A DNA stretch of 43,179 bases from Candidatus Angelobacter sp. Gp1-AA117. Lineage in GTDB: Bacteria > Acidobacteriota > Terriglobia > Terriglobales > Acidobacteriaceae. This document shows, piece after piece, positions 4,126-20,989 of this stretch; position 1 is the stretch's first letter; every line of letters begins with the position of its first letter. A program made the position numbers and the translations under genes. The notes under the pieces are model-generated. The model was given only the letters and a program-made list of their open reading frames with translations, was not told the DNA's origin and did no database searches. Location: NCBI GenBank assembly GCA_003223515.1, contig QHVI01000121.1, forward strand, positions 1-43,179, read 5' to 3'.

Positions 4126-4596
4126 TTTCTATTTCATCTTAGTCTGTTGGAGGCTCAAAGCCTATTTATTTCAGCTCTTGCCTGGCGGTTATTCCATCCA
4201 TCGGTGGTACGGCCACTACAAGCAACGCAAACTCGAACGGCTCCTTCAATCTACCATTACATTGCAGCAGTTACCGCCCAGCTTGGTCGCTGGCTCGATG
4301 AGAGCGAGGACAGGTGCCCAGATAGGTGGTGGACAGGGTGAAGTACAGGGTCGCCTTGTGGCCATTTACCTGTCCGCGAAGACAGTTACATTCCCTTTCG
4401 TTCTGCGGATAGGATGCCAACTGAAATTGCACGAAATGCATATGCAACCCTTACAGGATTTTCCACAATGTAAGAGGTTAAGGCGAGAGCCTACCCGGAA
4501 GGTTCTGAAACTGGCCAATCATCGTATTTCTCCCGAGCCGGGACATCAGGCACAGGCGTTTCCGTATTGAGAAGCCGACTTCGTGAAAGGCTGGAC
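4126..4596. promoter_or_regulatory. Divergent intergenic region, probable promoter and leader of the cluster operon
   Basis: About 470 noncoding bases between the minus-strand oxidoreductase and the NusG-like gene; promoters for both should lie here. I see no convincing -35/-10 pair. One feature stands out: an interrupted palindrome, cttaca at 4450-4455 and tgtaag at 4469-4474 with 13 bases between, which could be an operator. No riboswitch or tRNA is recognised. Confidence 0.4.
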
Positions 4597-7056: not shown

Positions 7057-7129
7057 CCGGCAGACTATAACTCCCCGAAGCCTGCCAGCGGCATAGCTGA
7101 GATGTGGTGACTGCCGGCCAGGCAGGCTT
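7057..7129 (+). promoter_or_regulatory. Structured leader with competing hairpins upstream of the aminotransferase gene
   Basis: In the 173-base gap before the aminotransferase, aagcctgcc (7078-7086) pairs perfectly with ggcaggctt (7121-7129) and ggca (7090-7093) with tgcc (7112-7115), a strong stem with an 18-base loop. Separately, ccggcag (7057-7063) is complementary to ctgccgg (7111-7117), which competes for the same bases. No T run follows, so it is not a simple terminator. It could be an attenuator-like switch or a protein-binding element. Confidence 0.4.
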
Positions 7130-7175
7130 CCCAATCACCCCTGACCAGACAGAGACCGCAACTGAAGGAGTCCTT

Positions 7176-8138
7176 ATGGCGATCGCGAAATCCGAATTTA
7201 TCTGGCACAACGGCAAGCTTATTCCCTGGGATGATGCAGAGATTCACGTGATGTCGCACGTGGTGCACTATGGCTCCTCCGTGTTTGAGGGGATCCGGTG
7301 CTATGCGCCACCCGCGGGACCTGCGATTTTCCGCGCCCCCGAGCACATGCAACGGTTACTCGATTCGGCCAAAGTGTATCGCATGGACGTGGATTACACG
7401 CGCGACCAACTGGTGAAGGCAATGATGGAAACCGTCGCCAGCAATGGCACGTGGCCGTGCTACGTGCGACCCATCATTTTCCGGGGCTACGGCGACGCCG
7501 GAGTGACTGCATTGAACTCGCCCACCGAGGTTTACATCATTAACTATCCGTTTGGATATCTGGGCGGCGAAAGTGAAGCTTGCGACGTCTGCGTTTCTTC
7601 CTGGACGCGGATCGCGCCCAATACGTTGCCGGCCATGGCCAAGTCGGGCGCCAATTACATGAACTCGCAACTCATCAAGATGGAAGCCAACCTCAACGGT
7701 TTTGCCGAAGGCATTGCACTCGACGTCAACGGCTTTGTCAGTGAGGGATCGGGGGTGAATGTGTTCGTGGTGCATCGCGAGAAGCTGATCACGGCGCCGC
7801 TCGGTAATTCGGTTCTTCCGGGCATCACCCGCGACTCCGTGCTACAGATTGCGCACGACCTCGGCATTCCGATTGTCGAGCAGATGATTCCGCGGGAGAT
7901 GCTCTACATCGCAGACGAAGCATTCTTCACCGGGACGGCAGCAGAAGTCACGCCGATCCGTTCCGTGGACAAGATCAATGTGGGCACGGGCGCGATTGGC
8001 CCCATCACCAGGGCGATCCAGAAGGAGTTCTACGCCATCGTGCGCGGCGAGAAGAGCGACCGCCACGGCTGGCTCACTCCGGTGCCGCTGCGCACTAAGC
8101 AGCCGGTCGAAAGAGTAAGAGTACCCGCAGCGGTATGA
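7176..8138 (+). CDS. ilvE: Branched-chain amino acid aminotransferase
   Basis: 320 residues, class IV PLP aminotransferase, close in length to E. coli IlvE (309). Signature parts: WHNGKLIPWDDAEIHVMSH, YGSSVFEGIRCY, the PLP lysine in MAKSGANYMNS (residue ~156), EGIALDVNGFVSEGSGVN and FFTGTAAEVTPI. It interconverts Leu/Ile/Val with their 2-keto acids in the cytoplasm. I start at ATG 7176 because GAAGGAG at 7164-7170 is a strong ribosome binding site; the longer GTG form from 7104 lacks one. Beside an isopropylmalate synthase and a keto-acid-type module, it probably sets the supply of a branched amino acid and/or a 2-keto acid for the peptide rather than serving housekeeping. Strict specificity is not readable. 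Confidence 0.85.
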   Translation: MAIAKSEFIWHNGKLIPWDDAEIHVMSHVVHYGSSVFEGIRCYAPPAGPAIFRAPEHMQRLLDSAKVYRMDVDYTRDQLVKAMMETVASNGTWPCYVRPIIFRGYGDAGVTALNSPTEVYIINYPFGYLGGESEACDVCVSSWTRIAPNTLPAMAKSGANYMNSQLIKMEANLNGFAEGIALDVNGFVSEGSGVNVFVVHREKLITAPLGNSVLPGITRDSVLQIAHDLGIPIVEQMIPREMLYIADEAFFTGTAAEVTPIRSVDKINVGTGAIGPITRAIQKEFYAIVRGEKSDRHGWLTPVPLRTKQPVERVRVPAAV

Positions 8139-8231
8139 GGATTGTGCCAATCACTTAAAGAACCAAGTCACTAAGTTATTTTGCGAAAACCGTATCGTAC
8201 GGTGCCTCCAGAAGCGCAAAGAGACAAGCCC

Positions 8232-9836
8232 ATGCGTCCACACATTCTCGAAGACATCAGAAGCCACGCTCTCGCCAAACCGAACCAACTTGCGGTCTGT
8301 GACAGCCAGCTCAGCATTAATTATGGTGACTTGGACCGCTTCAGCACCAGCCTCGCACTGCACTTGCAGGCAATTGGCTGTAAGACTGGAAGCCGCGTTG
8401 TCATGGTGGCGAACCGACGGGCCGTCATGGTGGCTGCAATTCTAGGCACCTTTAAGGCGGGATGCATCCACGTTCCGCTCGATCCCCGCATGCCCGCAGC
8501 TCGCCTGCAATACATCTTGAATGACATAGCACCTGCCGCCGTCATAACAGAGGAAGATCTGCGGGAAACTATCGAAGCATATCTTCCCCCGCAGGCCAGC
8601 TTACTTCTGCAGGAAGACTTAGAGCGCATTCTACAGGCGAGCGCAGCAACGGATTACGCCCCCGGCCCGGACGTAAGTTCACCGGGCTGGCTTCTGGACT
8701 TGCCGGCGTACTGCATCTACACATCCGGATCGACTGGACGGCCCAAAGGTGTCTTGATCGACCATCGCAACATTGTCGATTTTTACGAGGGGGCGGCAGA
8801 AGTTTACGACGTCCGTGCGGAATCGGTTTGCGCCAGTTTCTCGCCGCTGCATTTCGATGTTTTTCTCATGGATATGTTGTTCCCACTTGCCCAGGGTGCT
8901 CGTCTGCATGTCCACGACGACATTGTGTTCTCTGATCTGTTGTTTCAGACGATAGCAACTAACAATGTGACCCATTTTTCCGCCTGGGGCTTGATGCTTG
9001 GACTCATTGCACAGGCGCTCGAATTCGGTACTACCCCTCTGCCGCACCTCCAGACCGTACTAACTGGAACAGATATCCCCAATGTTGACACTGTTCAGCG
9101 ATGGTTGCGGGCAGGGACAGGCGTTAAAGTGATCAATGCTTACGGTCCAACCGAAGTCACATGCGGTTGTACTGCGTACACGATCCGAGACCATGAGCCT
9201 GGCCGGAAAGAGCTTTACCCTATCGGGAGACCGTTCAAACATGTGCAGACTTTCCTCGTCGGCAGCGAAGGCGAGCGAATCACACAAAGCGATGTGCCTG
9301 GCGAACTGTACATCGGTGGTACGCAGGTAATGAGGGGCTACTGGAACCTGGCGGCGGAGACGGAGGCTGCTGTGACGTATCTGGACGGCATACGCTGCTA
9401 TCGCAGTGGTGATGTCTGTATTTATCAGGATGATGGTAATCTCTTCTACCTTGGGCGGAAAGATAACGAAGTAAAAATCGGCGGCTATCGCGTACACCCG
9501 AATGAAGTGCGGCGCGCCATCAATAGTGTGCCGAATGTGCACGATTCCGAGGTCGTCCTGGTCCAGACTAAGTATCGGGAAAAAGTCCTGGCTGCAGGAA
9601 TCCTTCTCAATGAGAGCGGCAAAGCGGGGACGCTCGACGCCGATCAGCAGATCCTTCGGATTCGTGCTCGTCTTATGGACGAGCTGCCAGCTTATATGGT
9701 GCCTCGTTATCTCGCAATTTTCGACGATTTTCCGAAACTGTCGTCAGGCAAGGCGGATCGTAAGGCACTCACATCCATTCTTACGGTTCGCATGACAAAG
9801 GAAGCTGAGGAGGTGGTAGCTACACATGAAAACTGA
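8232..9836 (+). CDS. Stand-alone NRPS adenylation domain (amino acid activation for the chlorination cassette)
   Basis: 534 residues, a single A domain with no condensation or carrier domain. Core motifs in order: A3 YTSGSTGRPKG (residue ~163), A4 FDVFLMD with the Asp that binds the substrate amino group, A5 NAYGPTEVTCG, A7 YRSGD, A8 GRKDNEVKIGGYRV and A10 SSGKADRKAL with the catalytic Lys, so it looks active on an alpha-amino acid. My pocket reading (D-V-M-F-L-G-A-C-G) matches no code I know well. ATG 8232 is preferred over TTG 8181 because domain homology begins there. Its last 11 bases overlap the carrier-protein gene. This split A + T pair corresponds to SyrB1 or CmaA, supplying the aminoacyl-S-carrier substrate to the adjacent halogenase. 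Confidence 0.85.
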   Translation: MRPHILEDIRSHALAKPNQLAVCDSQLSINYGDLDRFSTSLALHLQAIGCKTGSRVVMVANRRAVMVAAILGTFKAGCIHVPLDPRMPAARLQYILNDIAPAAVITEEDLRETIEAYLPPQASLLLQEDLERILQASAATDYAPGPDVSSPGWLLDLPAYCIYTSGSTGRPKGVLIDHRNIVDFYEGAAEVYDVRAESVCASFSPLHFDVFLMDMLFPLAQGARLHVHDDIVFSDLLFQTIATNNVTHFSAWGLMLGLIAQALEFGTTPLPHLQTVLTGTDIPNVDTVQRWLRAGTGVKVINAYGPTEVTCGCTAYTIRDHEPGRKELYPIGRPFKHVQTFLVGSEGERITQSDVPGELYIGGTQVMRGYWNLAAETEAAVTYLDGIRCYRSGDVCIYQDDGNLFYLGRKDNEVKIGGYRVHPNEVRRAINSVPNVHDSEVVLVQTKYREKVLAAGILLNESGKAGTLDADQQILRIRARLMDELPAYMVPRYLAIFDDFPKLSSGKADRKALTSILTVRMTKEAEEVVATHEN

Positions 9837-10086
9837 AGCTGTACTAACTAACATCATCGAAGATGTAGTCGGAGTCAAGGGAGTGCGCCGCGATTATCGC
9901 TTTATTGACATTGGCGGTAACTCAACGCATCTGGGTGCAATCCTGACACGGATCCATAGTGAGACCGGAGTAGCTGTGCCTGTCCGCATGTTCTTCCACA
10001 AAACTGACTCCACAATAGCAGCCATCGCCGCCAAGATTGATTCTCTGCTCCAGGAGAGCCAGGCGGCGTTAACAACCAGTCAGTAA
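9826..10086 (+). CDS. Stand-alone peptidyl carrier protein
   Basis: 86 residues, one thiolation domain. The phosphopantetheine attachment motif is DIGGNSTHLG, with Ser at about residue 33. The ATG lies inside the end of the A-domain gene (11-base overlap), indicating translational coupling and stoichiometric production. It should carry the amino acid activated by the preceding enzyme as a thioester and present it to the Fe/2-oxoglutarate halogenase encoded next. Free carrier proteins of this kind are obligatory substrates of SyrB2-type halogenases. Confidence 0.85.
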   Translation: MKTEAVLTNIIEDVVGVKGVRRDYRFIDIGGNSTHLGAILTRIHSETGVAVPVRMFFHKTDSTIAAIAAKIDSLLQESQAALTTSQ

Positions 10087-10120
10087 AACAAGCCAAGACT
10101 TACAAATCAAGGAGAGTTAT

Positions 10121-11047
10121 ATGAGGAAGGACTATTATCTTTCCGAAGCGGAAAAGAAATTTTTTTACAACAATGGTTATCTGGGTCCCTTCACGCTGAT
10201 GGAACCAGACGAAATGACGAGCCTTTTCGAAGAGGTACGTATGGATCTGCTGGACACCCGTAACGCACCTTTTCCGAAGAGCAAATTGAACTATGACCGG
10301 CACCTCGATATTCCGGCGCTAAATCAGATCATTAACAATCCAAAGATAACTCATCGCGTTTCAAGTATTCTTGGACCTAACGTGTTGAGCTGGCGTACAG
10401 AGTGGTTTCCCAAGTACCCCGGAGACGAAGGTACTGATTGGCACCAGGCGGAAAGCTTCGTCGAATTCGAGGGAACGGAAAAGCTGTTTCCAACCGCGGA
10501 AGAAGAGTTGAAAGAATATGACCAGGGCAGGCCCTGGGAGCTTACAGCCTGGATCGCGATGGCCGAAGCAACAAAGGAAAATGGCTGCCTCAAAGTCATG
10601 CCTGGAACTCATCGGACGTGGTTTTTCGATGAAAAAAAGAATATAAAGTTTGAACCCGAAAATTTCAATAAGAAGACGATTGACACTGGAGAGAAGGCCG
10701 GCTTCTATGGCTACGATTACGACAAACTGAAGCTCGATCCAACCTGGAAGCCAGACGAGTCGAAGGCGGTCCATATGGTGATGAAGCCTGGCCAGTTCTG
10801 CATCTTCACCTCGCGGTGTATGCACGGCTCCAATCCCAACAGGACCAAGGACCAGACACGCATGGGCTGGGCGACCCGCTTCGTGCCAACCCACGTGAAG
10901 GTGTATGACGGCCAAAAGTCTTTCCATCACTTTGGGGAAGAACTGCCGCTGGACAGGTATTCAACGGTCCTGGTTTTGGGAGAAGACCACTATCACCACA
11001 ATAAAGTGCGTCCGCCCATGGAGGTGGTTGCTACAACCAGCGCTTAA
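10121..11047 (+). CDS. Non-heme Fe(II)/2-oxoglutarate-dependent halogenase, SyrB2-like
   Basis: 308 residues, about the length of SyrB2 (310), in the phytanoyl-CoA dioxygenase superfamily. The decisive motif is TDWHQAES: iron-binding His at residue 108, then Ala at residue 110 where hydroxylases have Asp or Glu. The missing carboxylate leaves an iron site open for chloride, the hallmark of SyrB2, CytC3, CmaB and BarB. The surrounding sequence tracks SyrB2 as I remember it: FPKYPGDEGTDWHQA, NGCLKVMPGTH, GFYGYDYDKL, KPDESKAV and the distal His in RCMHGSNPN (residue ~235). Expected reaction: chlorination of an unactivated carbon of an aminoacyl group held on the adjacent carrier protein, using Fe(II), 2-oxoglutarate, O2 and chloride. 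GGAGAG lies just before the ATG. The chlorinated position and number of chlorines are unknown. Confidence 0.9.
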   Translation: MRKDYYLSEAEKKFFYNNGYLGPFTLMEPDEMTSLFEEVRMDLLDTRNAPFPKSKLNYDRHLDIPALNQIINNPKITHRVSSILGPNVLSWRTEWFPKYPGDEGTDWHQAESFVEFEGTEKLFPTAEEELKEYDQGRPWELTAWIAMAEATKENGCLKVMPGTHRTWFFDEKKNIKFEPENFNKKTIDTGEKAGFYGYDYDKLKLDPTWKPDESKAVHMVMKPGQFCIFTSRCMHGSNPNRTKDQTRMGWATRFVPTHVKVYDGQKSFHHFGEELPLDRYSTVLVLGEDHYHHNKVRPPMEVVATTSA

Positions 11048-11065
11048 CCGCCACTCTAATTAGCT

Positions 11066-11133
11066 AGCCAAAATGGCTTCGCCCCCTTGATATCCTTTGG
11101 AGTAGAACGGTGACGAGGGCGAAGCCTCTGGCT
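11066..11133. repeat. Intergenic inverted repeat between halogenase and RraA-like genes
   Basis: ggcttcgccc (11075-11084) pairs perfectly with gggcgaagcc (11117-11126). Outer arms agcca (11066-11070) and tggct (11129-11133) extend the stem. The loop is 32 bases. It is followed by TTAAAAAAAA, not a T run, so it does not read as an intrinsic plus-strand terminator. It may be an mRNA-processing or stabilising hairpin, or a scar. Confidence 0.6.
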
Positions 11134-11208
11134 GGTTAAAAAAAAGATTCCAGTGTGCCCGCCCGGCAATTTTCAGGGCTGGGTGGCAAACCGAGCCAGG
11201 AGTTAGAC

Positions 11209-11934
11209 ATGTTTCTTGGTAACCAATCTGTTCTGTCCAGAGACGAAGACATGGCGCAGTGGAAATCGGACGAAGAACTATTTGCCTGGATTCGGAAAGA
11301 ACTTTCAACTCCTCCTGTCAGCGACGTGATGGAGCAGCTTGGGTTTCGATATCCAATGCTGCCGGCGCATATTCGCCCTTTACGAAGCGACATGGTGCTG
11401 ATCGGGCGCGCTATGCCGGTACAAGATGAACTACCGGTCGAATACGGGGAGCCATCGCGCTTTGATGCTAAGCCGTTCGGATTGTTGTTCGAATCCATCG
11501 AGGCGCTTCGTCCCAACGAGGTATATATCGCCAGCGGCGGGCCAACGCATGTTGCGAGGTTGGGGGACATGCTGGTGATGCGGGCGCAAAACTTAGGTGC
11601 AGCGGGCGTCGTGATCAATGCACATCTTCGCGATGGCAACGCCATATTATCCCTGAACTTTCCCGCCTTCGCTCACGGTTGTCACGCCTACGGTTTGCAG
11701 CGCCGCCACAATGTAGTGGATTTTCGCTGTTCGATCACAATCGACAAGGTGCGGATCAGACCTGGCGATCTGATCTTTGGCGATGGTGACGGGGTGTGTG
11801 TCATTCCACACGAGGCGGAAGGGGAGATCCTTAACCGGGCGTTTGCCAAGACGCAATTGGAGAGGAACGTCCGCAGAGATATTGAATCCGGTCAAAGCGT
11901 AGTTGATGCTTTTAATAAGCACAGGGCGATGTAA
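11209..11934 (+). CDS. RraA-family protein (HMG/CHA aldolase or decarboxylase-like)
   Basis: 241 residues from ATG 11209, preceded by AGGAG at 11198-11202 with 6-base spacing; a longer GTG start at 11155 lacks this support. Family signs: VSDVMEQLG at the start, IGRAMPVQ, the GDMLVMRAQNLGAAGVVINAH stretch followed by Arg-Asp (the metal/substrate site), and RPGDLIFGDGDGVCVIP near the end. The relatives are metal-dependent aldolases or decarboxylases acting on 4-hydroxy-4-methyl-2-oxoglutarate and related keto acids, and the RNase E inhibitor RraA. The usual VDGxxRD reads VINAHLRD here. Between a halogenase and a thioesterase it most likely acts on a keto-acid precursor, but no cluster role for this family is known to me. 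Confidence 0.75.
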   Translation: MFLGNQSVLSRDEDMAQWKSDEELFAWIRKELSTPPVSDVMEQLGFRYPMLPAHIRPLRSDMVLIGRAMPVQDELPVEYGEPSRFDAKPFGLLFESIEALRPNEVYIASGGPTHVARLGDMLVMRAQNLGAAGVVINAHLRDGNAILSLNFPAFAHGCHAYGLQRRHNVVDFRCSITIDKVRIRPGDLIFGDGDGVCVIPHEAEGEILNRAFAKTQLERNVRRDIESGQSVVDAFNKHRAM

Positions 11935-12029
11935 GGGGATCCACGCTATCCATCCGAGTATTCATCCGGATGAACGGAAGAGTGCTGCCCTGGGATCCTG
12001 CCCATTGAAGGCTTACGAAGCCGGCGGTA

Positions 12030-12710
12030 ATGCCGTCATCTTGTGTGGTCCGGCGCACTTCGAGCGCCGCGACTAAGCATGAAGTGGTGGCCATCCAGCT
12101 TCCCGGGCGAGAGTACCGGCTTGATGAGCCGCTGTTGACCGACGCGCATGAAATTGCGGGCCAGGTTGCCGAAATCCTGCCGCTGGACAAGCCATTTGTA
12201 TTTTTCGGTCATAGCATGGGCGTGTTCATCGGATTCGAGGTTGCACGACTCTTGCGTGAACAAGGGCTTCGCCAACCTGAAATGTTCATCGCTTCGGGGC
12301 GGAACGCACCGCAATTCAAGTGGCGGGATGCCGGGATGCAACTGCTTCCGGATGATGAGTTTGTTGCGGCAGTGACTGCCTACAACGGCACACCCGCGGC
12401 TTTGTTGCAGGACGCGGCGCTGCGCGACCTTTGGCTTCCGCGGCTCCGAGCCGATCTGACCGTATCGGCCCAGTACCGGTATGTCGAGAAGGAACCGTTA
12501 GAGTGCCCGATTGTGGTTCTCTCCGGAAACGAAGACGAGCTCAGCACCGAGGCAGGGCTGAACGGTTGGCTCACTCAAACGACCGCAGAGGTTCGATATT
12601 TTCGCTTTGCCGGCAATCATTTCTTTTTGCACAGCGCTGAACAACTCGTGCTCTGCAGGATTGCGGAGGAGCTAACCAAACTGATCGCTCATCAACCGAT
12701 CGGCGATTGA
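12030..12710 (+). CDS. Type II thioesterase, N-terminus apparently frameshifted
   Basis: Alpha/beta-hydrolase editing thioesterase. Visible: VVAIQLPGRE, the nucleophile elbow FFGHSMGVFIGFE (Ser at residue ~61), LSGNEDE and the catalytic His in FAGNHFFL. The open frame begins at ATG 12030 and is 226 residues, 20-30 short of the family. The missing N-terminal block, with the oxyanion AGG motif, is readable in another frame at 11999-12073 as YEAGGNAVILCGPAHFERRD, at the correct distance from LPGRE if one T near 12074 is removed. The gene therefore looks damaged by a single-base insertion, or the sequence has an error. Role: removing misprimed or stalled acyl groups from carrier domains; CmaT- and BarC-like versions act in chlorination cassettes. 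Confidence 0.8.
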   Translation: MPSSCVVRRTSSAATKHEVVAIQLPGREYRLDEPLLTDAHEIAGQVAEILPLDKPFVFFGHSMGVFIGFEVARLLREQGLRQPEMFIASGRNAPQFKWRDAGMQLLPDDEFVAAVTAYNGTPAALLQDAALRDLWLPRLRADLTVSAQYRYVEKEPLECPIVVLSGNEDELSTEAGLNGWLTQTTAEVRYFRFAGNHFFLHSAEQLVLCRIAEELTKLIAHQPIGD

Positions 12711-12751
12711 GGCTCAACTATCAATGTGACAGGATGTAACAGGAGACGACG

Positions 12752-14020
12752 ATGAAAGCATCTCGCGATAACTTGCCAGTCCCTAACCCCAGCCTGCAAC
12801 CCACCAAGCCTGAGCTCGTACGAATCTTCGATACAACGCTGCGCGATGGGGAACAAAGCCCGGGTGTCTCACTCACCGCTGACGCGAAGTTGCAGATCGC
12901 AGAACAGCTTGCAAAGTTGGGCGTCGATGTGATCGAAGCCGGATTTCCAGTTTCCAGTCCAGGGGATATGAGCGGTGTGCAGAAGATCGCAAAAAGCGTA
13001 GGCCAAGCGAAGCGCACCAACAAGCATGGCTTGATAGCGGATCCGCCTGGCATCGCTGCGATGGCGCGTGCAAGTCGCGCGGACATCGATAGCGCGTGGC
13101 GCGGTGTCAGAGATGCAATCTATCCTCGCATCCATATTGTGCTTGCAACCAGCGACATTCATATGGAATACAAGCTGCGCAAGACACGACCCGAAGTTAT
13201 AGAGATGGCCCGGAGTTCGGTCGCCTACGCTCGCAATCTCTGCAATGATGTTGAGTTCAGCCCGGAGGACGCAACCCGGAGCGATCGCGATTATCTGGTG
13301 CAGGTGCTGGAAGCGGCGGTGGAAGCCGGCGCCACGACTCTCAACATTCCGGATACAGTCGGGTACGCAACGCCGGAAGAGTACGGCGCATTGATTGGCT
13401 TTATTCATCACCACTTTGCTTCTGCTAATGTCACCGTGAGTGCGCATTGCCACGATGATCTGGGTTTGGCCACCGCGAATACACTGGCCGGTCTCGCAAA
13501 TGGGGCCCGCCAAGTCGAGGGAACCATCAACGGTATCGGGGAGCGAGCCGGCAATGCGTGCATGACGGAAACTGTCATGGCACTGCGAACACGGGCGCCC
13601 TTGTTCAGTTTAGAGACAAACATCATCACGAAGGAGATTTGGCGGACGAGTAAGCTAGTGAGTGACTTGACTGGCATGGTTGTTCAGCCCAATAAAGCGA
13701 TTGTGGGGGCGAATGCATTCGCGCACCAGGCGGGGATTCACCAGGACGGTATGCTCAAAAATAAGCGCACCTATGAAATCATGGACCCCTCGGACGTGGG
13801 AGTCAGCGAAAGCAGCCTGGTGCTTGGCAAGCTAAGCGGCCGCAACGCGTTGCGCTCGAAACTTGAAAAGCTCGGATATCACGTGGAAGGCGAAAAACTC
13901 GACCAAGTCTCCATAAGAGTGAAGCAGGTGCTGGACATCCAGAGAGCAGTCAGTGACCTCCAGTTGCACGAGATTTGCGCTGAAGTTTTCCGGTCCACAA
14001 ATGCGGCTGTGGCTTATTAA
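12752..14020 (+). CDS. leuA: 2-Isopropylmalate synthase-like enzyme lacking the regulatory domain
   Basis: 422 residues. The TIM-barrel catalytic part is canonical: [28 protein letters not shown], the metal-binding [25 protein letters not shown] and HQAGIHQDG. The protein stops at the point where normal LeuA (about 510-520 residues) continues into its Leu-binding regulatory domain, so feedback inhibition is probably lost. CAGGAG precedes the ATG. It condenses acetyl-CoA with a 2-keto acid, classically 2-ketoisovalerate on the way to 2-ketoisocaproate and leucine. leuB/leuCD are not in the window and would come from elsewhere. With the aminotransferase it probably floods the cell with 2-ketoisocaproate/Leu or a homologue. 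A homologating (HphA-like) or citramalate-type activity is an alternative. Confidence 0.8.
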
Positions 14021-14224
14021 GAGTTTTGCTTTGTCCTGATATAGAAACAGAGTGAGATGGACCAAAGAACAGCGGAGCCGCCTCCAGCAATTCGTTACAT
14101 CCACCACGGAATTCGGAGTTAACTCAATCAGGTATTGCGGAGAAGACTCTTTCTCTCCGTTGAACCTTCAGGCGCTCCAGGGGCGGTTTGCGGAGGTTAC
14201 ACTGGCGGGAGAGCTGGTGAGACC
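14021..14224. other. Intergenic gap before the GNAT gene
   Basis: 204 bases with no supported gene. A small inverted repeat, cggaga / tctccg, lies near 14138-14159. The reading frame of the downstream GNAT extends back to 14135, but that extension has no family resemblance and no ribosome binding site. Confidence 0.4.
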
Positions 14225-14767
14225 ATGGCGGCCTGCCCTATCGCGAGAACTGCTATGTACCACGGACTAGATGAATTGAGCCAAACGAATACGGTCGAAG
14301 TGAAAGTGGACGTACCGGATAGCGCCGACGCGCGCTGGTGCATAGAGCAGTATTATCGGGAACTAGCGGAGCGTTTCGACACAGGTTTCGATCCGGTCAA
14401 AAGCAATCCCGCTCCCGACGAGGATCTAGTTCCTCCGAGGGGTTACTTTGTCGTGGCCCGGCTGGATGGCCATCCTGTTGGATGTGGCGTGCTCAAGCGC
14501 AAGAATCCAACAACGGCTGAGATCAAGCGAATGTGGACGGCTTCATCCGCACGCAGGCGTGGTGTTGCACGCAAAGTTCTCCATACGCTTGAGACCATTG
14601 CTCGGGAAGCGGGATTTACAGTGCTCCATCTTGAAACGAATCGGACCCTGGCCGAGGCTCAGGCACTGTACCGAAAGGAAGGTTACATCGAAGTCGACGC
14701 CTTCAACGACGAACCTTACGCCCATCATTGGTTCGAGAAATACCTGCAGTCCGATTCCGGCAGATGA
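14225..14767 (+). CDS. GNAT-family N-acetyltransferase
   Basis: 180 residues from ATG 14225 (GGGAGAG 11 bases upstream; ATG 14255 is a second candidate). A typical GNAT core: GYFVVARLDGHPVGCGVL, EIKRMWTASSARRRGVARKVL containing the acetyl-CoA pyrophosphate loop R-R-x-G-x-A, a GFTVLHLETNR strand and the EAQALYRKEGYIEVDAF C-terminal motif. It transfers an acetyl group from acetyl-CoA to an amine. Inside the cluster it may acetylate a peptide side chain or provide self-resistance; the substrate cannot be inferred. Confidence 0.8.
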   Translation: MAACPIARTAMYHGLDELSQTNTVEVKVDVPDSADARWCIEQYYRELAERFDTGFDPVKSNPAPDEDLVPPRGYFVVARLDGHPVGCGVLKRKNPTTAEIKRMWTASSARRRGVARKVLHTLETIAREAGFTVLHLETNRTLAEAQALYRKEGYIEVDAFNDEPYAHHWFEKYLQSDSGR

Positions 14768-14869
14768 TCGCGAGCCCCCCTCGATATTAGGAATTCCTTG
14801 AAGCTCGACAGCCTCGCGATGGCATGCTGTGGACGAACCACCATACGGCGAGGAAAAGCACATACAAAT

Positions 14870-16525
14870 ATGATGAACCTTCTCGACATTTATACAGCGC
14901 TCGCATGCGAGCGCCCGGATGAGCCTGCCTTAATATTCGAGCGTGAACCTTACGTGGGCATGAGATTGTCGTGGGCGCAGCTCGCTGCCCGGGGCGAAGA
15001 ACTGAGTCTTCAGCTTGCAGCAGCTGGCATAGGTCGGCAAAGTCTTTGCGCGGTTGAGTTGGCAGACCACCCCGATACAGTGCCGTTGCTGCTCGGAATC
15101 TGGCGCCTTGCGGGTACCGCACTGCTGGTCGACCCGAAATGGGGAGTCAGCGTGCGCCGCTCGGTTTATTCCCATAGCTGGCCGGATGCGTCCATCACGC
15201 TGGATCCGGAATTTACGGTTTCGCTGCTCAACGCCCCTTCCTCAAAAGACGAATATGCGGATTTGCCGGAAGGGGCCGCGCTGCTGGCCTATACCTCCGG
15301 GAGTACCGGAGACCCCAAGGGCATTGTCATACCGCATGATCGATTGGTGACGGCAATATATGCGGCGGCCGCGGCCATTGTCCGACATCGTGGTGTCGCG
15401 CCCAAATACATTGCCTGCAGCATGCGGCTCTCCGGATACGGCGTTCTCATCATCCATTACATGTGGGCCGCCTGCGCGGGCGCTGCCGTTGTTGTCCTGC
15501 CGGAACTTAACTTGCGAACCGCTCCCGGGTACTGGCAAACAGTTGCCGATCACGACATCGATCAGATCTTTCTGGTGCCGCCGCTGGTCGAACTTCTGAA
15601 CCAGCTGGGGGCCCCGGCGCAGGGAATGCGCAAAGTTCCCACCTGCATCTCAGGCAGTGCGCCGTTATCGCAGCGGACACAGCAGGAATTTCACCGCCGA
15701 TTTGGCCTCGGCCTGCTCAACGCCTACGGACTCACCGAATCCATGTGCCCCTCTTTCTTCGGTGAGTATGATGAGCGCGGAATGGGCCGAAACACCTTTG
15801 GCAGTCCGGCCTTGCTCAAGGCTCAGCTGCGTGATGGAAACGGAACCGTGGTGGAGGGCCCCGGCGAAGGGGAGCTTGAGTTGTCGGGTCCGGTGGTATT
15901 CGATGGGTACTATCGGAATAAGCATGCCACAGAGGCTGCCTTCCACGGATGCTGGCTTCGGACCGGAGATCTTTTCAGACGCGACGAGCAGGGTCGGTAC
16001 TGGATCGTGGGGCGGCTCAAGAATGTCGTCATGAAGGGCGGCCATTCGATTTATCTTGACGAGGTGGAGAGTGCCGCGTTTGAGATTGATGGGATTCATG
16101 AAGTTGCGGGGGTTCCTTTGCATCTTCCTGCTGGAGGCGAAGATATTGGTCTGCTGGTCCGATTTGTGCCCAATTCTGGTCTGACCTGCGCTGTCGTAGC
16201 AGCCGAGCTACGACAGCGGCTTGGAGGTGGACAGATGGAAGAGCTGACCGAGGAAGTATTTATCAAGCGGGCCCGGACCTTTTTCTATGAAGTGGCCGGA
16301 GTGGAATCCGCCTCACTCGACCCCGATGCTGATCTGATTGAGAGCGGAATCCTCGATTCGCTGCTCCTCATCTCATTCCTGGCTTTTATTGAGAATCTCC
16401 GCGGCTCACCGCTGGATATCACGCCAGAAAATCTCCCAGCGATCTCCAGTCTTCGCGGCGCATACGCGTTCGTTCGCTTGCAGAAACCTGACGATGAACT
16501 TTGCGGGAGTTTCAATGGAGCCTGA
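14870..16525 (+). CDS. AMP-dependent ligase fused to an acyl carrier protein, A10 region missing
   Basis: 551 residues from ATG 14870; a TTG at 14798 with AGGA ahead is an alternative start. The N-terminal part is an adenylate-forming ligase: LAYTSGSTGDPKG at residue ~141, NAYGLTES, LRTGDLF and GRLKNVVMKGGHSIYLDEVE. Where A domains keep the amino-binding Asp this one reads MRLSGYG, so it probably activates a simple carboxylic acid. After LLVRFVPNSG and AELRQRL the expected segment with PxxPSGKxxR, including the catalytic Lys of A10, is absent. The chain passes directly to a carrier domain with LIESGILDSLLL (Ser ~497). It may be inactive in adenylation while the ACP remains usable. Its end overlaps the next gene by 11 bases. 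Confidence 0.75.
   Translation: MMNLLDIYTALACERPDEPALIFEREPYVGMRLSWAQLAARGEELSLQLAAAGIGRQSLCAVELADHPDTVPLLLGIWRLAGTALLVDPKWGVSVRRSVYSHSWPDASITLDPEFTVSLLNAPSSKDEYADLPEGAALLAYTSGSTGDPKGIVIPHDRLVTAIYAAAAAIVRHRGVAPKYIACSMRLSGYGVLIIHYMWAACAGAAVVVLPELNLRTAPGYWQTVADHDIDQIFLVPPLVELLNQLGAPAQGMRKVPTCISGSAPLSQRTQQEFHRRFGLGLLNAYGLTESMCPSFFGEYDERGMGRNTFGSPALLKAQLRDGNGTVVEGPGEGELELSGPVVFDGYYRNKHATEAAFHGCWLRTGDLFRRDEQGRYWIVGRLKNVVMKGGHSIYLDEVESAAFEIDGIHEVAGVPLHLPAGGEDIGLLVRFVPNSGLTCAVVAAELRQRLGGGQMEELTEEVFIKRARTFFYEVAGVESASLDPDADLIESGILDSLLLISFLAFIENLRGSPLDITPENLPAISSLRGAYAFVRLQKPDDELCGSFNGA
16189..16218. repeat. Perfect 12-bp inverted repeat at the A10 deletion point
   Basis: Arms cgctgtcgtagc (16189-16200) and gctacgacagcg (16207-16218) are exact reverse complements with a 6-base loop. 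It lies inside the ligase-ACP gene exactly where the C-terminal adenylation subdomain should continue and does not. The position suggests a hairpin-associated deletion. Confidence 0.8.
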
Positions 16526-17495
16526 GCTCAGGAGAGCCATGAGCATGCTGCCGCGCCTTGATTGTACCGATCCGGTGGCTGCCCGATCCGAAATGAATCG
16601 GTTCGTTCGGCTGTCGACTCTGCTGGGATCTCACGCGCTGACCGACCCAGAGGTTGACATTGTTGATCGGATCTGCCCTTCCGATGGCACGTCCGCCGTC
16701 CGCGTTCGGCTGTACGTTGCCCGGGACCAGGTCAAACCCGCTGCTGCGATAATTTATTTCCACGGCGGGGCTTTTCTGCTCGGAGATCTTGAGATCGAGC
16801 ATCCGAGATGTCTGGAAATGGCGAAAGAGACCAAAGCCGTGGTAATTGCGGTCGACTACCGTCTGGCGCCCGAGCACCCATTCCCCGCGGCCATCACGGA
16901 CTGCTATGCGGTCTATCTCTGGGCGATGGCCGAAGCCGACGAACTCGGCATTGACGTTTCCCGCATTGCCGTTGCCGGCGCCAGCGCGGGCGGCGCACTT
17001 GCCGCGGCTGTGGCCCTTATGTCCCGTGATCGCGGGGTTCGCGTGCCGGCGTTTCAGCTCCTCCTGTACCCCGTAACTGACGACCGCATGATCACTCCAT
17101 CGATGATCCGCTTTGTCGACATCCAGGGCTGGAACCGCAGAAACTCCGAACGCATGTGGGCGCATTATCTTGGTGAGAGGGCCGGCGGGGATGTGTCGCC
17201 CTATGCCGCTCCGGCGCGCGCGTGTGACCTTCGTGGCCTTCCGTCGGCTTACGTGATGACGGTCGATTACGATGCGCTGCGAGACGAGGGTATTAATTAC
17301 GCGCAAAGCCTGCTCCAGGCCGGGGTGCCCGTCGAGCTGCACCACTATCCCGAAACATTTCACGGTTTCGACACGGTAGCCACGTCCGAGGTGGCGCGGC
17401 GCGCCAGAAGAGAACATTGCAGGGTCCTTTGTCATGCTTTGCAGCCTCGTCGACTAGGCTCCAATGGAAAATCTCAGGTGGTCAATGGCCGGTGA
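16515..17495 (+). CDS. Alpha/beta hydrolase, hormone-sensitive-lipase (HSL) family esterase
   Basis: 326 residues. Start at ATG 16515, because GGGAG at 16505-16509 sits 5 bases ahead and family similarity begins just after; the frame is open much further upstream but that part is a shadow of the ligase gene. HSL signatures: IIYFHGGAFLLGD (oxyanion hole HGGA for HGGG), VDYRLAPEHPFPAA, GASAGGALAAA with nucleophile Ser at residue ~157, the acidic residue in DALRDEG and His in ETFHGFDT. A cytoplasmic carboxylesterase or amidase. It overlaps both neighbours by 11 bases, so it is part of a tight three-gene unit. Possible roles are hydrolysis of an acyl intermediate or resistance by cleaving the ester of the product. 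Confidence 0.8.
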   Translation: MEPELRRAMSMLPRLDCTDPVAARSEMNRFVRLSTLLGSHALTDPEVDIVDRICPSDGTSAVRVRLYVARDQVKPAAAIIYFHGGAFLLGDLEIEHPRCLEMAKETKAVVIAVDYRLAPEHPFPAAITDCYAVYLWAMAEADELGIDVSRIAVAGASAGGALAAAVALMSRDRGVRVPAFQLLLYPVTDDRMITPSMIRFVDIQGWNRRNSERMWAHYLGERAGGDVSPYAAPARACDLRGLPSAYVMTVDYDALRDEGINYAQSLLQAGVPVELHHYPETFHGFDTVATSEVARRARREHCRVLCHALQPRRLGSNGKSQVVNGR

Positions 17496-18720
17496 ACTGT
17501 TTAATTCGCTCATGCTGAACGCGGTAGACGAGATTATTCGCCGTGATCCGGAATACCTTTCTAAACAACCGGTGAGGACCGGCAGAGCTGCGCCGGACGG
17601 CCCATCCCGCACTCAAAAGCAGTTCGCAGGGGAGCAGGCTCTGGTCGAACGGTGCGTGGAATTCCTGCGGCGGGCCGACATTCCGTTGGATGATACCGCC
17701 GTCGAAGCCGATGACGCGTGGAAGCTGCTCATGGCGAATGCCACAGATGCGGAGGCAGCGGAGCGCGGCGCAGTCTCGCTCGCTCCGTCGGTATCTCCCA
17801 AAAAACCGATCGAGCATGTTCTCCGCGACGATTATGAAGAGCGTAAATTAAAGAGCGGAGCCAGATATTTCGTCCGGCGTCGCGGGCGTCAGCCGTTGGT
17901 ATTGATCAATGCGAGCGGTGTCCCGGCCGCCTTATGGATACAATTGCTGGCGGACGAAACCGATCACTTTCGTATTCTCATGTGCGAAAGCCGCGCGAGC
18001 GACCTTTTCGCCGGAGGCCTGCATACCGACACCACCGCGGAAATGGACGCCGCTGACGCCGCTCTCGCTGTGCGGCAGGAGGGCTTTGACAAGGTGGATG
18101 TGCTCGCCTGGTGCAATGGCCATTTGCCTGCGATAGAACTTACCGAGAAGACAGCCGTTGATTCGCTTGTGCTTCTCGCCCCGTCATTCTTTACCTCTGA
18201 CCAAAGATTCGCCACAGTGTACGGCCGCAAGATTCTGGGAATGCTGGATGTAGTGCGTCGTGAGCCGGCAATGACCAGCGCTCTGTGTAAATTCACGCTC
18301 GCCCAGGTGAATGCAAGCGCCGCAGATCCTGGTAAGAGCGGATTGCCTGTATGGTCGTTACCCGACCGATCGCGGGTTTTTGAGATCGCAAGCCCGATGT
18401 CGACCACACCGTCGCTGACGAGGTACGCAAACAGGCTGGCCTCGGATGCGATTTACCCGCTTCGTCAGAAACTGGCAAAGTTAACCAATCGGCTGATGGT
18501 CATCACCGGAAATGATGATCACATTGCGAGCGACGCCGCCGCTACTGAACTGCTCGCCGCCACGCGCGTCAGGAACACCCGTATCCGCATGGCTGCCGCC
18601 GGACATTATATTCAGGATCTTCAATACCGCTATCTGCGTACCTTACTCGAATCATTCCTTGTCAATCGCAGCGAACCCCGGCCTCTGGCAAGAACCGCGG
18701 TGGTTTCCTCTGCTGCGTGA
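17485..18720 (+). CDS. SyrC/CmaE-like aminoacyltransferase (alpha/beta fold with Cys nucleophile)
   Basis: 411 residues from ATG 17485; ATG 17464 is also possible. After an N-terminal helical region of about 110 residues comes an alpha/beta-hydrolase domain: FVRRRGRQPLVLINASGVP, ILMCESRASD and the elbow LAWCNGHLPAIE in which Cys (residue ~210) replaces the usual Ser. The acidic member is in VITGNDDHIASD and His in AAAGHYIQDL, giving a Cys-Asp-His triad. SyrC and CmaE, which shuttle chlorinated aminoacyl groups from a free carrier protein to an NRPS carrier domain, have this Cys-for-Ser exchange and a similar size. Here it sits 6 kb from a SyrB2-like halogenase and directly before the NRPS. 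I infer it moves the halogenated residue to the module without a working A domain. Confidence is high for the fold, moderate for the role. Confidence 0.75.
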   Translation: MAGELFNSLMLNAVDEIIRRDPEYLSKQPVRTGRAAPDGPSRTQKQFAGEQALVERCVEFLRRADIPLDDTAVEADDAWKLLMANATDAEAAERGAVSLAPSVSPKKPIEHVLRDDYEERKLKSGARYFVRRRGRQPLVLINASGVPAALWIQLLADETDHFRILMCESRASDLFAGGLHTDTTAEMDAADAALAVRQEGFDKVDVLAWCNGHLPAIELTEKTAVDSLVLLAPSFFTSDQRFATVYGRKILGMLDVVRREPAMTSALCKFTLAQVNASAADPGKSGLPVWSLPDRSRVFEIASPMSTTPSLTRYANRLASDAIYPLRQKLAKLTNRLMVITGNDDHIASDAAATELLAATRVRNTRIRMAAAGHYIQDLQYRYLRTLLESFLVNRSEPRPLARTAVVSSAA

Positions 18721-18814
18721 ATTCTGTCTGCATACATCATAGGCTTCCACTGTATTCCAGGGAAAGAGTGTTATGACATCATCGCCGGCTAGTCCGCTTT
18801 TGGGAGAGATAAGT

Positions 18815-20989
18815 ATGAGCAAAGCGACCACGATATCGAACGAGGTGGCAATCGCAACCATGGTTGACGTGTTGCGGTTGAGGGCAGAGACGCAGAGAGA
18901 CGAGATCGCCTACAGGTTTCTGGCCGACGGGGAAGAAGAGAGAAGCACGCTCACCTATGGCGAGCTATACAACCGAGCGCGCCAGGTCGCGGCTGAATTG
19001 CAGAAGCAGTCAGCGGCAGGCGAAAGAGCTTTGCTTCTCAATTCCTCGGAAGCCGACTACATTGTTGCGTTTTTCGGTTGTCTCTGTGCGGGTGTAATCG
19101 CGGTTCCAATTTATGCGCCTCGTTTGAATAAGAAAGGAAATGCCCGCGTCGAGTCGGTGGTGGCCGACGCCCAGCCCTCCGTAGTATTGACCGCCGGACC
19201 CGGATCTCCCGCGGTTCGCGACATGATCACGGCATCGGCGGGGGAGCATGTCAGGTGGATTGACACCAATGCCCTCCCTGTCAATGGCGATCAATTGTGG
19301 ACTCCGCCGGCTGTAAGCGGCACAGATATCGCATTCTTACAGTACACGTCCGGCTCGACGGCCGCTCCCAAAGGAGTGATGGTAAGTCACGCGAACATTC
19401 TGCATAACGAGCGGATGATCCGGAATGCGTTTGATACAAAGCCTGGCAGTGTAATTGTAGGCTGGCTGCCGCTCTTTCACGACATGGGGCTTATCGGCAA
19501 CGTACTGCAACCGTTGTACGCCGGAGTGCCCTGCATCCTGATGTCGCCGGTCGCCTTCCTGCAGCGACCGCTTCGCTGGCTTCAGGCCATTTCCCGCTAT
19601 CAGGCGACGACCAGCGGCGGACCTAACTTTGCCTACGAACTCTGCATGCGCAAAATCCGTCCTGAATACCGGAGCGGACTGGACCTGAGTTCGTGGCGGG
19701 TGGCGTTCAACGGCGCGGAACCAGTACGCTTGGAAACGGTGAACCGATTTGCCGCACAGTTCGCCGACTGTGGTTTTCGTCGCGAGGCCTTTGTTCCCTG
19801 CTATGGCCTGGCTGAAGCTACTCTGTTTGTAAGTGGAGGTCTTGATCCGAACGGCGTCACTACCGTGAACCATGGAGTCAACGGTAACTCGAATAATGGC
19901 GGATCGGGGAATGGAGCAAAGATATCTCAAAAACAAGGCAAGCTGCTGGTGGCCTGTGGCCGTCCTCCGGTGGAGCAGGCCGTGCGAATCGTTTCTCCGG
20001 ATTCGCTACGACCATGCAGCGCTGGTGATGTAGGCGAGATATGGATCAGCGGCCCGAGTGTTGCGCAGGGGTACTGGCGAAAAGCGAAAGAGACAGAAGA
20101 GACCTTCAACGCGCGGATACCCGGGCTTGACGAAGGCCCATTTCTTCGTACGGGAGACCTGGGGTTTCTGAAAGATGACCACCTATTTATAACTGGCCGG
20201 CTGAAAGACCTGCTTATCATTCGCGGGCAGAATTATTATCCACAGGATATAGAGCTTACCGTCGAGCAGAGCCATCCTGTCTTGCAGCCTGGGTCGGGAG
20301 CGGCATTCTCGGTGGAGATCGAAGGGGAAGAGCGCCTCGTCATTGTGCAAGAGGTTGCGGTGCGCAAAGACCCGGAATCTATTGTTCAGAGTGACCTTGA
20401 CGAACTCGACGCCCTCATAAAACTTATTGCACGAAACATCGTGGCCGGCCATGAACTGCAGGCGTTCGCCATTGTCCTGATACGAAAGGGCACGATTCCC
20501 AAAACCTCCAGCGGCAAGATCCAGCGCCATGCATGTCGAGATGCGTTTCTGAACCGGGAACTCTATGTTCTGCGAGAGTGGCAGGAAAGAAAGCAGCTCG
20601 AGCCAGTTTTGCCAAAACCTTCCAACCCCGAGTTGGATGGGCACGGGCCGTACGGGCTGGCTTCGTGGGTAGCGCAGGAAATTTCGCGTACCCAGGGAAT
20701 TGACCAGGAGCGGGTTGACCTCAACCAACCTTTCGCAGCCTATGGCTTGGATTCACTGGCCGCCATTGAGTTCGCTCACAAGCTGCAAGCTGAGTTTCAG
20801 GTCGAGGTAGATGTCGCGGAGTTCTTCGGTGACTCGACCATTACTGAAGTGATTCGACGAGCGACGAAAAATACGAAGTCCCCTGTGAGGAAAGTTGAAA
20901 AGGAGCAGCCTGCAACCTATCCGCTTTCATACGGCCAGCGCGCCCTATCCGGTTCAGCAGGTTGCAGACAAAGTCGAGGTTTGCTTTGA
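18815..20989 (+). CDS. Fatty acyl-AMP ligase (FAAL) with ACP, start of the synthetase, frame lost in C1
   Basis: Starts at ATG 18815 with GGGAGAG at 18802-18808 (6-base spacing), better than ATG 18773. Residues about 10-590 form a FAAL: LQYTSGSTAAPKGVMVSH, GWLPLFHDMGLIG, YGLAEATLFVSGG, a Gly/Asn-rich insertion, FLRTGDLGF, RLKDLLIIRGQNYYPQDIE and TSSGKIQRHACR with the catalytic Lys. An ACP with YGLDSLAAIEF (Ser ~647) follows. FAALs form acyl-adenylates and hand fatty acids straight to an ACP, so this starts a lipopeptide. After the ACP the first residues of a condensation domain appear (YPLSYGQRAL) before the frame is lost near 20946. The last ~15 residues are an artefact of that shift. Confidence 0.88.
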   Translation: MSKATTISNEVAIATMVDVLRLRAETQRDEIAYRFLADGEEERSTLTYGELYNRARQVAAELQKQSAAGERALLLNSSEADYIVAFFGCLCAGVIAVPIYAPRLNKKGNARVESVVADAQPSVVLTAGPGSPAVRDMITASAGEHVRWIDTNALPVNGDQLWTPPAVSGTDIAFLQYTSGSTAAPKGVMVSHANILHNERMIRNAFDTKPGSVIVGWLPLFHDMGLIGNVLQPLYAGVPCILMSPVAFLQRPLRWLQAISRYQATTSGGPNFAYELCMRKIRPEYRSGLDLSSWRVAFNGAEPVRLETVNRFAAQFADCGFRREAFVPCYGLAEATLFVSGGLDPNGVTTVNHGVNGNSNNGGSGNGAKISQKQGKLLVACGRPPVEQAVRIVSPDSLRPCSAGDVGEIWISGPSVAQGYWRKAKETEETFNARIPGLDEGPFLRTGDLGFLKDDHLFITGRLKDLLIIRGQNYYPQDIELTVEQSHPVLQPGSGAAFSVEIEGEERLVIVQEVAVRKDPESIVQSDLDELDALIKLIARNIVAGHELQAFAIVLIRKGTIPKTSSGKIQRHACRDAFLNRELYVLREWQERKQLEPVLPKPSNPELDGHGPYGLASWVAQEISRTQGIDQERVDLNQPFAAYGLDSLAAIEFAHKLQAEFQVEVDVAEFFGDSTITEVIRRATKNTKSPVRKVEKEQPATYPLSYGQRALSGSAGCRQSRGLL

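Follow-up and report, generated by a model that had tools for sequence, protein, structure and literature searches.

We analysed a 43,179-nucleotide stretch of DNA (hereafter the window), the whole of contig QHVI01000121.1 in the 6.48 Mb genome of the acidobacterium Candidatus Angelobacter sp. Gp1-AA117 (assembly GCA_003223515.1), in which genes for a putative carrier-tethered chlorination stand upstream of a lipopeptide-type non-ribosomal peptide synthetase (NRPS). Since the window is a complete contig, the last synthetase open reading frame (ORF) is cut by the contig end. From position 7104 the forward strand encodes, in order, an IlvE-like aminotransferase, a stand-alone adenylation (A) domain, a stand-alone peptidyl carrier protein (PCP), an iron-dependent halogenase, an RraA-like protein, a type II thioesterase, a LeuA-like enzyme, a GNAT acetyltransferase, an AMP-binding enzyme, an esterase-like hydrolase, an alpha/beta protein with a Cys nucleophile, a fatty acyl-AMP ligase (FAAL)-like enzyme with an acyl carrier protein (ACP), and the NRPS (Table 1). 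An earlier note, made from the sequence alone, had described a chlorination cassette of the SyrB1/SyrB2/SyrC type at 8232-18720. Family-profile searches and motifs found each part it had named on that strand and at the coordinates it gave: A domain, PCP, HQA-bearing enzyme, thioesterase and Cys protein. It had added LeuA-, IlvE- and RraA-like genes to the cassette; LeuA and RraA do fall within that range, whereas IlvE lies just upstream of it. The GNAT, AMP-binding and esterase-like genes were not in its list.

Table 1. Features of the window, in order, with the divergent leucyl-tRNA synthetases of three related loci (T, thiolation domain; C, condensation domain; KR, ketoreductase)
Feature	Coordinates	Strand	Basis
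IlvE-like branched-chain aminotransferase; proposed amino-acid/keto-acid exchange	7104..8138	+	NF005146 396 bits (cutoff 279), TIGR01122 380 (cutoff 246)
Stand-alone A domain, BarD-like, code DVMSLGACGK	8181..9836	+	PF00501 8e-75, TIGR01733 353 bits (cutoff 317)
Stand-alone PCP, BarA-like	9826..10086	+	PF00550 3.4e-6; attachment Ser in DIGGNS
Predicted Fe(II)/2-oxoglutarate halogenase, HQA facial motif (H108, A110, H235), barbamide-side group	10121..11047	+	PF05721, TIGR01762, tree, model
RraA-like aldolase-family protein, cassette subgroup	11155..11934	+	PF03737 3e-27; LRDGN, RPGDLIFGD
Type II thioesterase, BarC-like position; putative release, editing or transfer	12030..12710	+	PF00975 6e-31, GHSMG
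2-Isopropylmalate-synthase-like enzyme (LeuA-like) that stops short of the LeuA_dimer region; putative role in precursor supply	12752..14020	+	NF002086
GNAT acetyltransferase, probable cassette member	14135..14767	+	PF00583
AMP-binding enzyme; carrier-like C-terminal segment by eye, no carrier model matched	14798..16525	+	PF00501 4e-42
Alpha/beta hydrolase, esterase-like; start judged by eye	16512..17495	+	PF07859 3e-68 on longer ORF 16338-17495
SyrC-like aminoacyl shuttle candidate, Cys217, Asp352, His381	17464..18720	+	LAWCNGH elbow; alignment; His381 by eye
FAAL-like enzyme with ACP (lipid starter)	18773..20989	+	PF00501, PF00550, PF23024
NRPS, C-A-T-C; first C without N-terminal part (profile 67-455 of 456)	20895..25322	+	domain profiles
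NRPS open at contig end; AMP-ligase-KR-T and two defective A domains	25292..43177	+	domain profiles
A-T unit, A core lost in frame, T intact; candidate trans-loading acceptor	28319..29881	+	PF00501 profile 1-191 of 384; PF00550 1.5e-11
A-like domain without recognisable A3, A5, A10; second inactive-looking A domain	31169..33211	+	PF00501 4.5e-61
Divergent cassette leucyl-tRNA synthetases (three alphaproteobacterial loci)	L144:9076-11364, L145:8672-10939, L146:4101-6407		TIGR00396, alignment

The halogenase scores 426.1 bits against the NCBIfam model for chlorinating enzymes (TIGR01762, curated cutoff 226.3), and its best sequence matches in the PDB (phmmer) are CytC3 (3e-78) and SyrB2 (1.5e-72), with its His-Gln-Ala (HQA) motif aligned on theirs. 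An AlphaFold2 model (mean pLDDT 87) superposes on SyrB2 (2fct) with a TM score of 0.88 and an rmsd of 1.8, and the fold alignments give 41% identity to SyrB2 and 34-36% to CytC3; these profile and structure comparisons were among those the earlier note had suggested, and both agree with its assignment. We then aligned 92 halogenases, kept as 86 rows (83 distinct) after dropping loci that repeat others. The facial-motif columns hold His and Gln in 86/86 rows and Ala in 85/86, the sole other row being the Val (HQV) of an Acidobacteriaceae metagenome-assembled genome (MAG; locus L066), and no row carries an acidic residue. WHQAESF is found in all ten printed rows of the group that contains the window protein, and HQA recurs in the second halogenase of the window's own genome (locus L002, not a row of the alignment). 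The replacement of His-x-Asp by HQA, on which the earlier note had built, is thus a family-wide motif, and its proposed check for acidic residues in close relatives leaves the halogenase assignment standing. A hydroxylase with a chance HQA was rejected on the TIGR01762 score, the family alignment and the fold, and an assignment to the CmaB type was rejected, identity to chlorinating enzymes adjoining cmaA being only 41.5%. By sequence and predicted fold, then, the protein is a halogenase of the carrier-tethered Fe(II)/2-oxoglutarate type, which would chlorinate an aminoacyl thioester. As a separate observation, the HQV-bearing acidobacterial halogenase has a SyrC-like neighbour with the AWCNG motif (L066:9941-12310).

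To place this enzyme among its relatives we drew on a genome scan that gave 227 relatives among 267 candidate stretches, of which the best 80 loci were kept. Eight of these, which we call barbamide-side, are closest to the window halogenase: two Ramlibacter MAGs (75 and 73% identity), Breoghania (73 and 66%), alphaproteobacterial and Rhodobacter MAGs (72%), a Moorena MAG with two halogenases (66-68%; L007) and a Thermoanaerobaculia MAG (54%; L009). In the remaining 72 loci the halogenase is 43-47% identical. A quick tree, with Shimodaira-Hasegawa-like approximate likelihood-ratio (SH-aLRT) supports and no bootstrap, unites the window with the proteobacterial cassettes (support 99), adds the two Moorena halogenases and that of L009 (96) and sets 73 other rows apart (98); the branch of L084 is very long and that of L009 long. 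SyrB2 and CytC3 are not rows of this tree, and identity would place them among the 73. A search at 1e-80 in 289 genomes of the class of the Rhodobacter MAG (G203) found the halogenase only in the two genomes already known to have it. Among 200 genomes of the window's family, its own included, the best halogenase outside its own genome was that of another acidobacterial-type genome (G106, 48%), and this protein (L083) falls among the 73 rows.

The window A domain is 56-61% identical to five A domains of the related cassettes and 47% to that of Moorena; the PCP 44-52% to six cassette PCPs and 38% to the Moorena PCP; and the thioesterase 57-61% to five cassette thioesterases and 45% to that of Moorena. 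At the Moorena locus, mapped with a weaker gene caller than the other relatives, a PCP gene is followed by two halogenase genes and then by those for a thioesterase, an A domain and a large synthase; this is the order barA-B1-B2-C-D-E, on which we take the locus to be of the barbamide type. Codes of the A domains, obtained by alignment to a GrsA anchor, are DVMSLGACGK in the window, DVMSLGACAK in all five cassette A domains and DAMALGGCAK in Moorena, the window and Moorena codes being identical at six positions of ten. BarB1 and BarB2 are reported to trichlorinate leucine tethered to BarA (PMC8407142; PMC3252866), and an A domain of the barbamide cluster is reported to accept both leucine and valine in full, with 80% for trichloroleucine (PMC10235377). 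The window code therefore points to leucine or a leucine-sized amino acid as the probable substrate; it departs from the Moorena code at four positions, with one polar change among them, and the substrate could therefore also be smaller or carry a hydroxyl group.

The genome holds a second halogenase (C30:27340-28209, locus L002), 47% identical to that of the window and the sole other match at E 0.001. Before it comes a protein that combines an A domain with two carrier domains, and after it a Cys alpha/beta protein bearing LCGGA; this is the SyrB1/SyrB2/SyrC order. The partial code of that A domain, NIGMVHK, is one we take to be of the threonine type. Two chlorination systems, seemingly different in substrate, thus coexist in this genome. 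In the light of this locus the SyrB1/SyrB2/SyrC label given to the window cassette holds for the logic, that is, carrier-tethered chlorination by stand-alone parts with a SyrC-like protein and probably a hand-over in trans; it does not hold for the type, since the halogenase tree and the A code go with Moorena, the A domain and PCP are separate proteins, and the SyrB order is found at L002. Threonine chlorination by the window cassette was accordingly dropped, tree and code both speaking against it.

The Cys-nucleophile protein of the window matched no family above cutoff (Pfam Abhydrolase_1, 0.0007). Its nearest relative is the protein directly downstream of the L066 halogenase (33% identity, 5.8e-60). 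Besides L002 itself, 35 loci matched the L002 protein used as query; 27 usable frames, together with L002 and the window, gave 29 aligned SyrC-like proteins, all of which keep the nucleophile Cys (a thirtieth row, L009_5563, was the wrong gene and does not enter the count), and Cys217, Gly219 and Asp352 are invariant in 16 aligned proteins. The model (pLDDT 72, pTM 0.72) adopts an alpha/beta hydrolase fold in which Cys217 opens the helix that follows a strand. The Cys elbow seen in the earlier note is confirmed, and the protein is SyrC-like by its sequence features; the best PDB matches of the model are ordinary alpha/beta hydrolases, and the fold alone is therefore no proof of transfer. Our initial view that only the window joins a barbamide-side halogenase to a SyrC-like protein was withdrawn, because L009 too carries a SyrC-like protein, of another subtype (GYCSGA; 3e-22 to the C30 protein); the pairing is thus seen twice, and in none of the five proteobacterial cassettes. 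The L009 locus as a whole also carries a PCP, A domains and a large synthase-like ORF beside its barbamide-side halogenase.

Downstream, the synthetase offers a plausible destination for a chlorinated group. The A domain of the A-T unit at 28319-29881 has a degenerate A3 motif (YTSSSTRW), and its A3 and A5 motifs are 41 residues apart; in four A domains of this synthetase that are intact, the distance is 137-142. Published precedents are the last (ninth) module of SyrE, which has no A domain and receives chlorothreonine via SyrC, and albicidin synthetase, in which an A domain is present but non-functional (PMC8949500); the latter is a precedent for the inactive domain only, the passages on it not mentioning halogenation. 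We infer that this A-T unit is the best candidate acceptor. The synthetase also shows two frame changes between adjacent ORFs, one near 20940 (in 20900-21000, where the FAAL-like ORF passes into the next), after which the first C domain has no profile positions 1-66, and one near 25320 (in 25290-25330), after which the next A domain has no positions 1-47. Further along, the segment 31169-36631 comprises a motif-less A domain followed by an AMP domain resembling fatty-acyl ligases, a KR and a T domain, an unusual module that may serve a hydroxy or keto acid.

The genes accompanying the core recur with it to different degrees, as scored with bit-score thresholds of our own setting and with the genes of the relatives' cassettes only partly run through family libraries. 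RraA like that of the window is present in 5/8 barbamide-side loci, LeuA in 3/8 and IlvE in 3/8, each against 0/72 of the others; a thioesterase is found in 6/8 against 2/72 and a flavin monooxygenase of the NtaA/DmoA type in 5/8 against 1/72. The window RraA is 59-76% identical to five cassette RraAs, while all 726 matches in plasmid records stay below 60%, the highest among the 15 listed being 45%. The LeuA-like enzyme scores 584 bits against NF002086 (cutoff 532; profile 4-389 of 516) and falls below the cutoff of TIGR00973 (535 vs 599), matching it to position 382 of 494, so that the C-terminal part is absent. It is 61-63% identical to three cassette LeuAs and 52% to another LeuA-like protein of the same genome, and at 1e-150 in the 200 family genomes it matched its own genome alone. 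LeuA_dimer domains were found in none of three acidobacterial-type genomes (that of the window, G000, with G106 and G494), though they are present in 14/14 control genomes; with no such domain anywhere in its host, the missing region is no special mark of the window cassette, and we dropped the idea of a feedback-free LeuA peculiar to it. The idea is kept for the three alphaproteobacteria, whose LeuA_dimer domains occur only on contigs other than the cassette's. The window IlvE is 46-48% identical to three cassette IlvEs that share 64% with each other; an orthologous relation is unsupported by these values, and the window may have recruited its copy separately. At L005/L145 a flavin monooxygenase is fused to a GNAT domain that shares 69.6% identity with the window GNAT. 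For RraA, LeuA, the A domain and the halogenase, the window protein resembles its proteobacterial counterparts roughly as much as these resemble one another, which fits a transfer of the set, IlvE excepted. The earlier note's remark that it knew LeuA, IlvE and RraA together from no described pathway is largely borne out: the three do recur with these cassettes, RraA and LeuA clearly and the window IlvE less clearly as the cassette's own, and no paper describing the set appeared among the matches listed in open-licence PMC full text, a search to which subscription papers and preprints are external.

The five alpha- and betaproteobacterial loci (L144-L148) have the same core, and no NRPS was seen in the regions read. 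In Ramlibacter (L147, L148) an acetaldehyde dehydrogenase and a 4-hydroxy-2-oxovalerate aldolase stand where the alphaproteobacteria (L144-L146) have LeuA, and a LysE-family exporter, a flavin reductase, an ATP-grasp ligase and a GNAT protein surround the halogenase; these clusters possibly encode a chlorinated dipeptide pathway. In the three alphaproteobacterial cassettes a leucyl-tRNA synthetase adjoins the A domain (3/8 barbamide-side loci, 0/72 others). The Rhodobacter copy, with which the other two share 61 and 63% identity, scores 648 bits against TIGR00396 (cutoff 548); a further leucyl-tRNA synthetase, at 36-39%, is present in two of the three genomes, and no clear one was seen in the third. 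We compared the three cassette copies with five housekeeping sequences and two 719-residue relatives, leaving out two misread frames (hk_G201 and hk_G200). HMGH and KMSKS are kept in the cassette copies, the presumed leucine-pocket stretch M-L/F-P-Y-PSG becomes Y-P-P-F-PSG, and the GG-EH-HL stretch and both presumed editing motifs are also altered. Such changes would fit an enzyme giving immunity against a leucine mimic, or one with a charging role in biosynthesis. The 719-residue relatives (Ramlibacter MAG, L149:1015-3174; Rhodobacter MAG, G203:C1:199797-201869, L118) are a third, leucyl-tRNA-synthetase-like kind, the Ramlibacter protein scoring below the TIGR00396 cutoff (441 vs 548). The window's genome has one full leucyl-tRNA synthetase. 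Over residues 16-648 it shares 74% identity with its counterpart in the L066 genome; the enzymes of six further genomes stand at 43-53%, and in an eighth genome nothing matched it at threshold. This enzyme is what places the host near the Acidobacteriaceae in our analysis, a 16S search of the genome having found no match. The proteobacterial cassettes probably release a chlorinated amino acid or a small derivative of it.

Elsewhere in the window, a NusG-family protein (4567-5190, PF02357) is encoded upstream of the cluster and may be an antiterminator dedicated to the long genes of the synthetase, and a fragment at the contig start (1-558) looks transposase-like by eye only. Promoter and terminator scans of the window did no better than shuffled sequences (4 vs 6.5 and 9 vs 10.6, respectively).

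Taken together, these results lead us to regard the cassette, with moderate confidence, as a leucine-type chlorination module of the barbamide kind that is plugged into an NRPS lipopeptide cluster via a SyrC-like shuttle. In this scheme the stand-alone A domain, judging by homology and code, would adenylate leucine or a leucine-sized amino acid and load it onto the stand-alone PCP. The halogenase, with Fe(II), 2-oxoglutarate, O2 and chloride, would abstract a hydrogen from the aminoacyl-S-PCP and chlorine would rebound, because Ala110 leaves the iron site open for chloride; trichlorination is not implied, there being one halogenase where barbamide has two. Cys217 of the SyrC-like protein would then take the chlorinated aminoacyl group to a synthetase carrier, the likeliest being the T domain of 28319-29881, the unit with the lost A core. 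The thioesterase may clear misloaded PCP or aid the transfer: LgnA is a type II thioesterase that acts as an aminoacyl transferase (PMC8748450), so the window thioesterase could share this task, although LgnA is a precedent for transfer only and halogenation does not figure in the passages on it. LeuA and IlvE, finally, would raise the supply of branched-chain precursors.

Several findings weigh against this scheme. The single halogenase contrasts with the tandem pair of barbamide, and the four differing code positions mean that the substrate may be a smaller or a hydroxylated amino acid. The SyrC-like protein matches nothing above 40 bits in the eight barbamide-side loci, the L009 protein matching it only at E 0.083, and it is only 24% identical (5e-8) to that of L002. 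Among the supply genes, other enzymes occupy the place of LeuA in Ramlibacter, the lack of LeuA_dimer is shared with the rest of the host genome and with G106 and G494, and the window IlvE is no closer to the cassette IlvEs than to others (the best-listed plasmid matches, at 48-53%, gave no indication of a taxonomic origin). A GNAT of the window type (above 80 bits) occurs in just 1/8 barbamide-side loci and 0/72 others. The two frame changes, with sequence missing at both, mean that the synthetase is either broken or misassembled. They lend weight to an explanation we consider unlikely though by no means negligible, in which the cassette is intact, the synthetase is decaying and no lipopeptide is made. 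Lost domain parts, one deleted A core and a segment (31169-34831) that found no match at 1e-100 in 60 relatives, with at most 11 candidates scored per genome, all agree with decay; yet the cassette genes are open with conserved motifs, a frame of 5962 codons persists, and repetitive NRPS genes can come out wrong in draft assemblies.

The other explanations turn on what the cassette makes. A thioesterase releasing a free chlorinated leucine-like amino acid unconnected with the adjoining NRPS would agree with the proteobacterial loci, where the same core occurs with no NRPS seen in the regions read, and with their exporter, ATP-grasp ligase and leucyl-tRNA synthetase. For the window we find it improbable, as the SyrC-like gene and the synthetase follow on the same strand, the genome has one leucyl-tRNA synthetase and no exporter was noticed in the cassette. 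Cryptic chlorination, in which chlorine would leave when a cyclopropane, an alkene or a ring is formed (the case of coronamic acid) and the product would be free of chlorine, could give work to enzymes that have no assigned role (RraA, GNAT, esterase) and to the flavin monooxygenases of the relatives. Against it, no cyclase of the CmaC kind was noticed in the window, in which no search was aimed at one, the enzymes beside cmaA are distant, and the chlorines are kept in barbamide (PMC3252866); this possibility too seems to us a poor fit. Most doubtful is a true SyrB-like cassette, in which the A domain would load threonine or 2-aminobutyrate, a 4-chloro form would be made and the Cys protein would shuttle it: the part list, the SyrC-like protein and the SyrB2 fold are what such a cassette would have, but tree and code stand on the leucine side, A and PCP are not fused, and the combination of a threonine-type code with a halogenase and a SyrC-like gene is present at L002 instead.

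Beyond the leucine-type module itself, we put forward only tentatively, as a possibility short of our main proposal, that these loci belong to an undescribed, horizontally spread pathway. Its core of A domain, PCP, barbamide-side halogenase, thioesterase and RraA, with LeuA or the aldolase pair and often IlvE, would make a chlorinated leucine mimic. In alphaproteobacteria this would be guarded or completed by a second leucyl-tRNA synthetase whose leucine and editing pockets are altered, in Ramlibacter an ATP-grasp ligase and an exporter of amino acids would accompany it, and in the window the building block would be captured by the SyrC-like shuttle for the lipopeptide. Leucine chlorination of the barbamide kind is known from cyanobacteria and the sponges that host them; barbamide-side halogenases with recurring supply genes in an acidobacterium and in alpha- and betaproteobacteria are new candidates for the chlorination of unactivated C-H bonds. 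The leucyl-tRNA synthetase linked to the alphaproteobacterial cassettes, for its part, predicts one of two things: a leucine antimetabolite accompanied by a gene for immunity, or a step that depends on tRNA.

Among described systems, CytC3 (armentomycin; 2-aminobutyrate) belongs to the same halogenase family and is only 34-36% identical in the fold alignment. The coronamic acid system presumably also has loading and halogenation on separate proteins, its halogenase beside cmaA being the 41.5% relative given above and its cyclopropane-forming partner having no counterpart noticed in the window, where, as said, none was specifically sought. Syringomycin resembles the window in halogenase fold, HQA motif, a SyrC-like Cys protein and a synthetase module without a working A domain; the window differs in a halogenase of another group, a leucine-like rather than threonine-type code, unfused A domain and PCP, and adjoining supply genes. 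Barbamide is closest: BarA, BarB1/BarB2, BarC and BarD have their likes in a stand-alone PCP, halogenase, thioesterase and A domain, within one supported halogenase group and with a similar A code. The window, in another phylum and with one halogenase where barbamide has two in tandem, adds RraA, LeuA and GNAT, followed by a SyrC-like protein and a FAAL-NRPS. The four core parts are of known kind and what is new is their union with these additions, in which a front end of the barbamide side meets a hand-over of the SyrC kind, an example of module swapping in nature.

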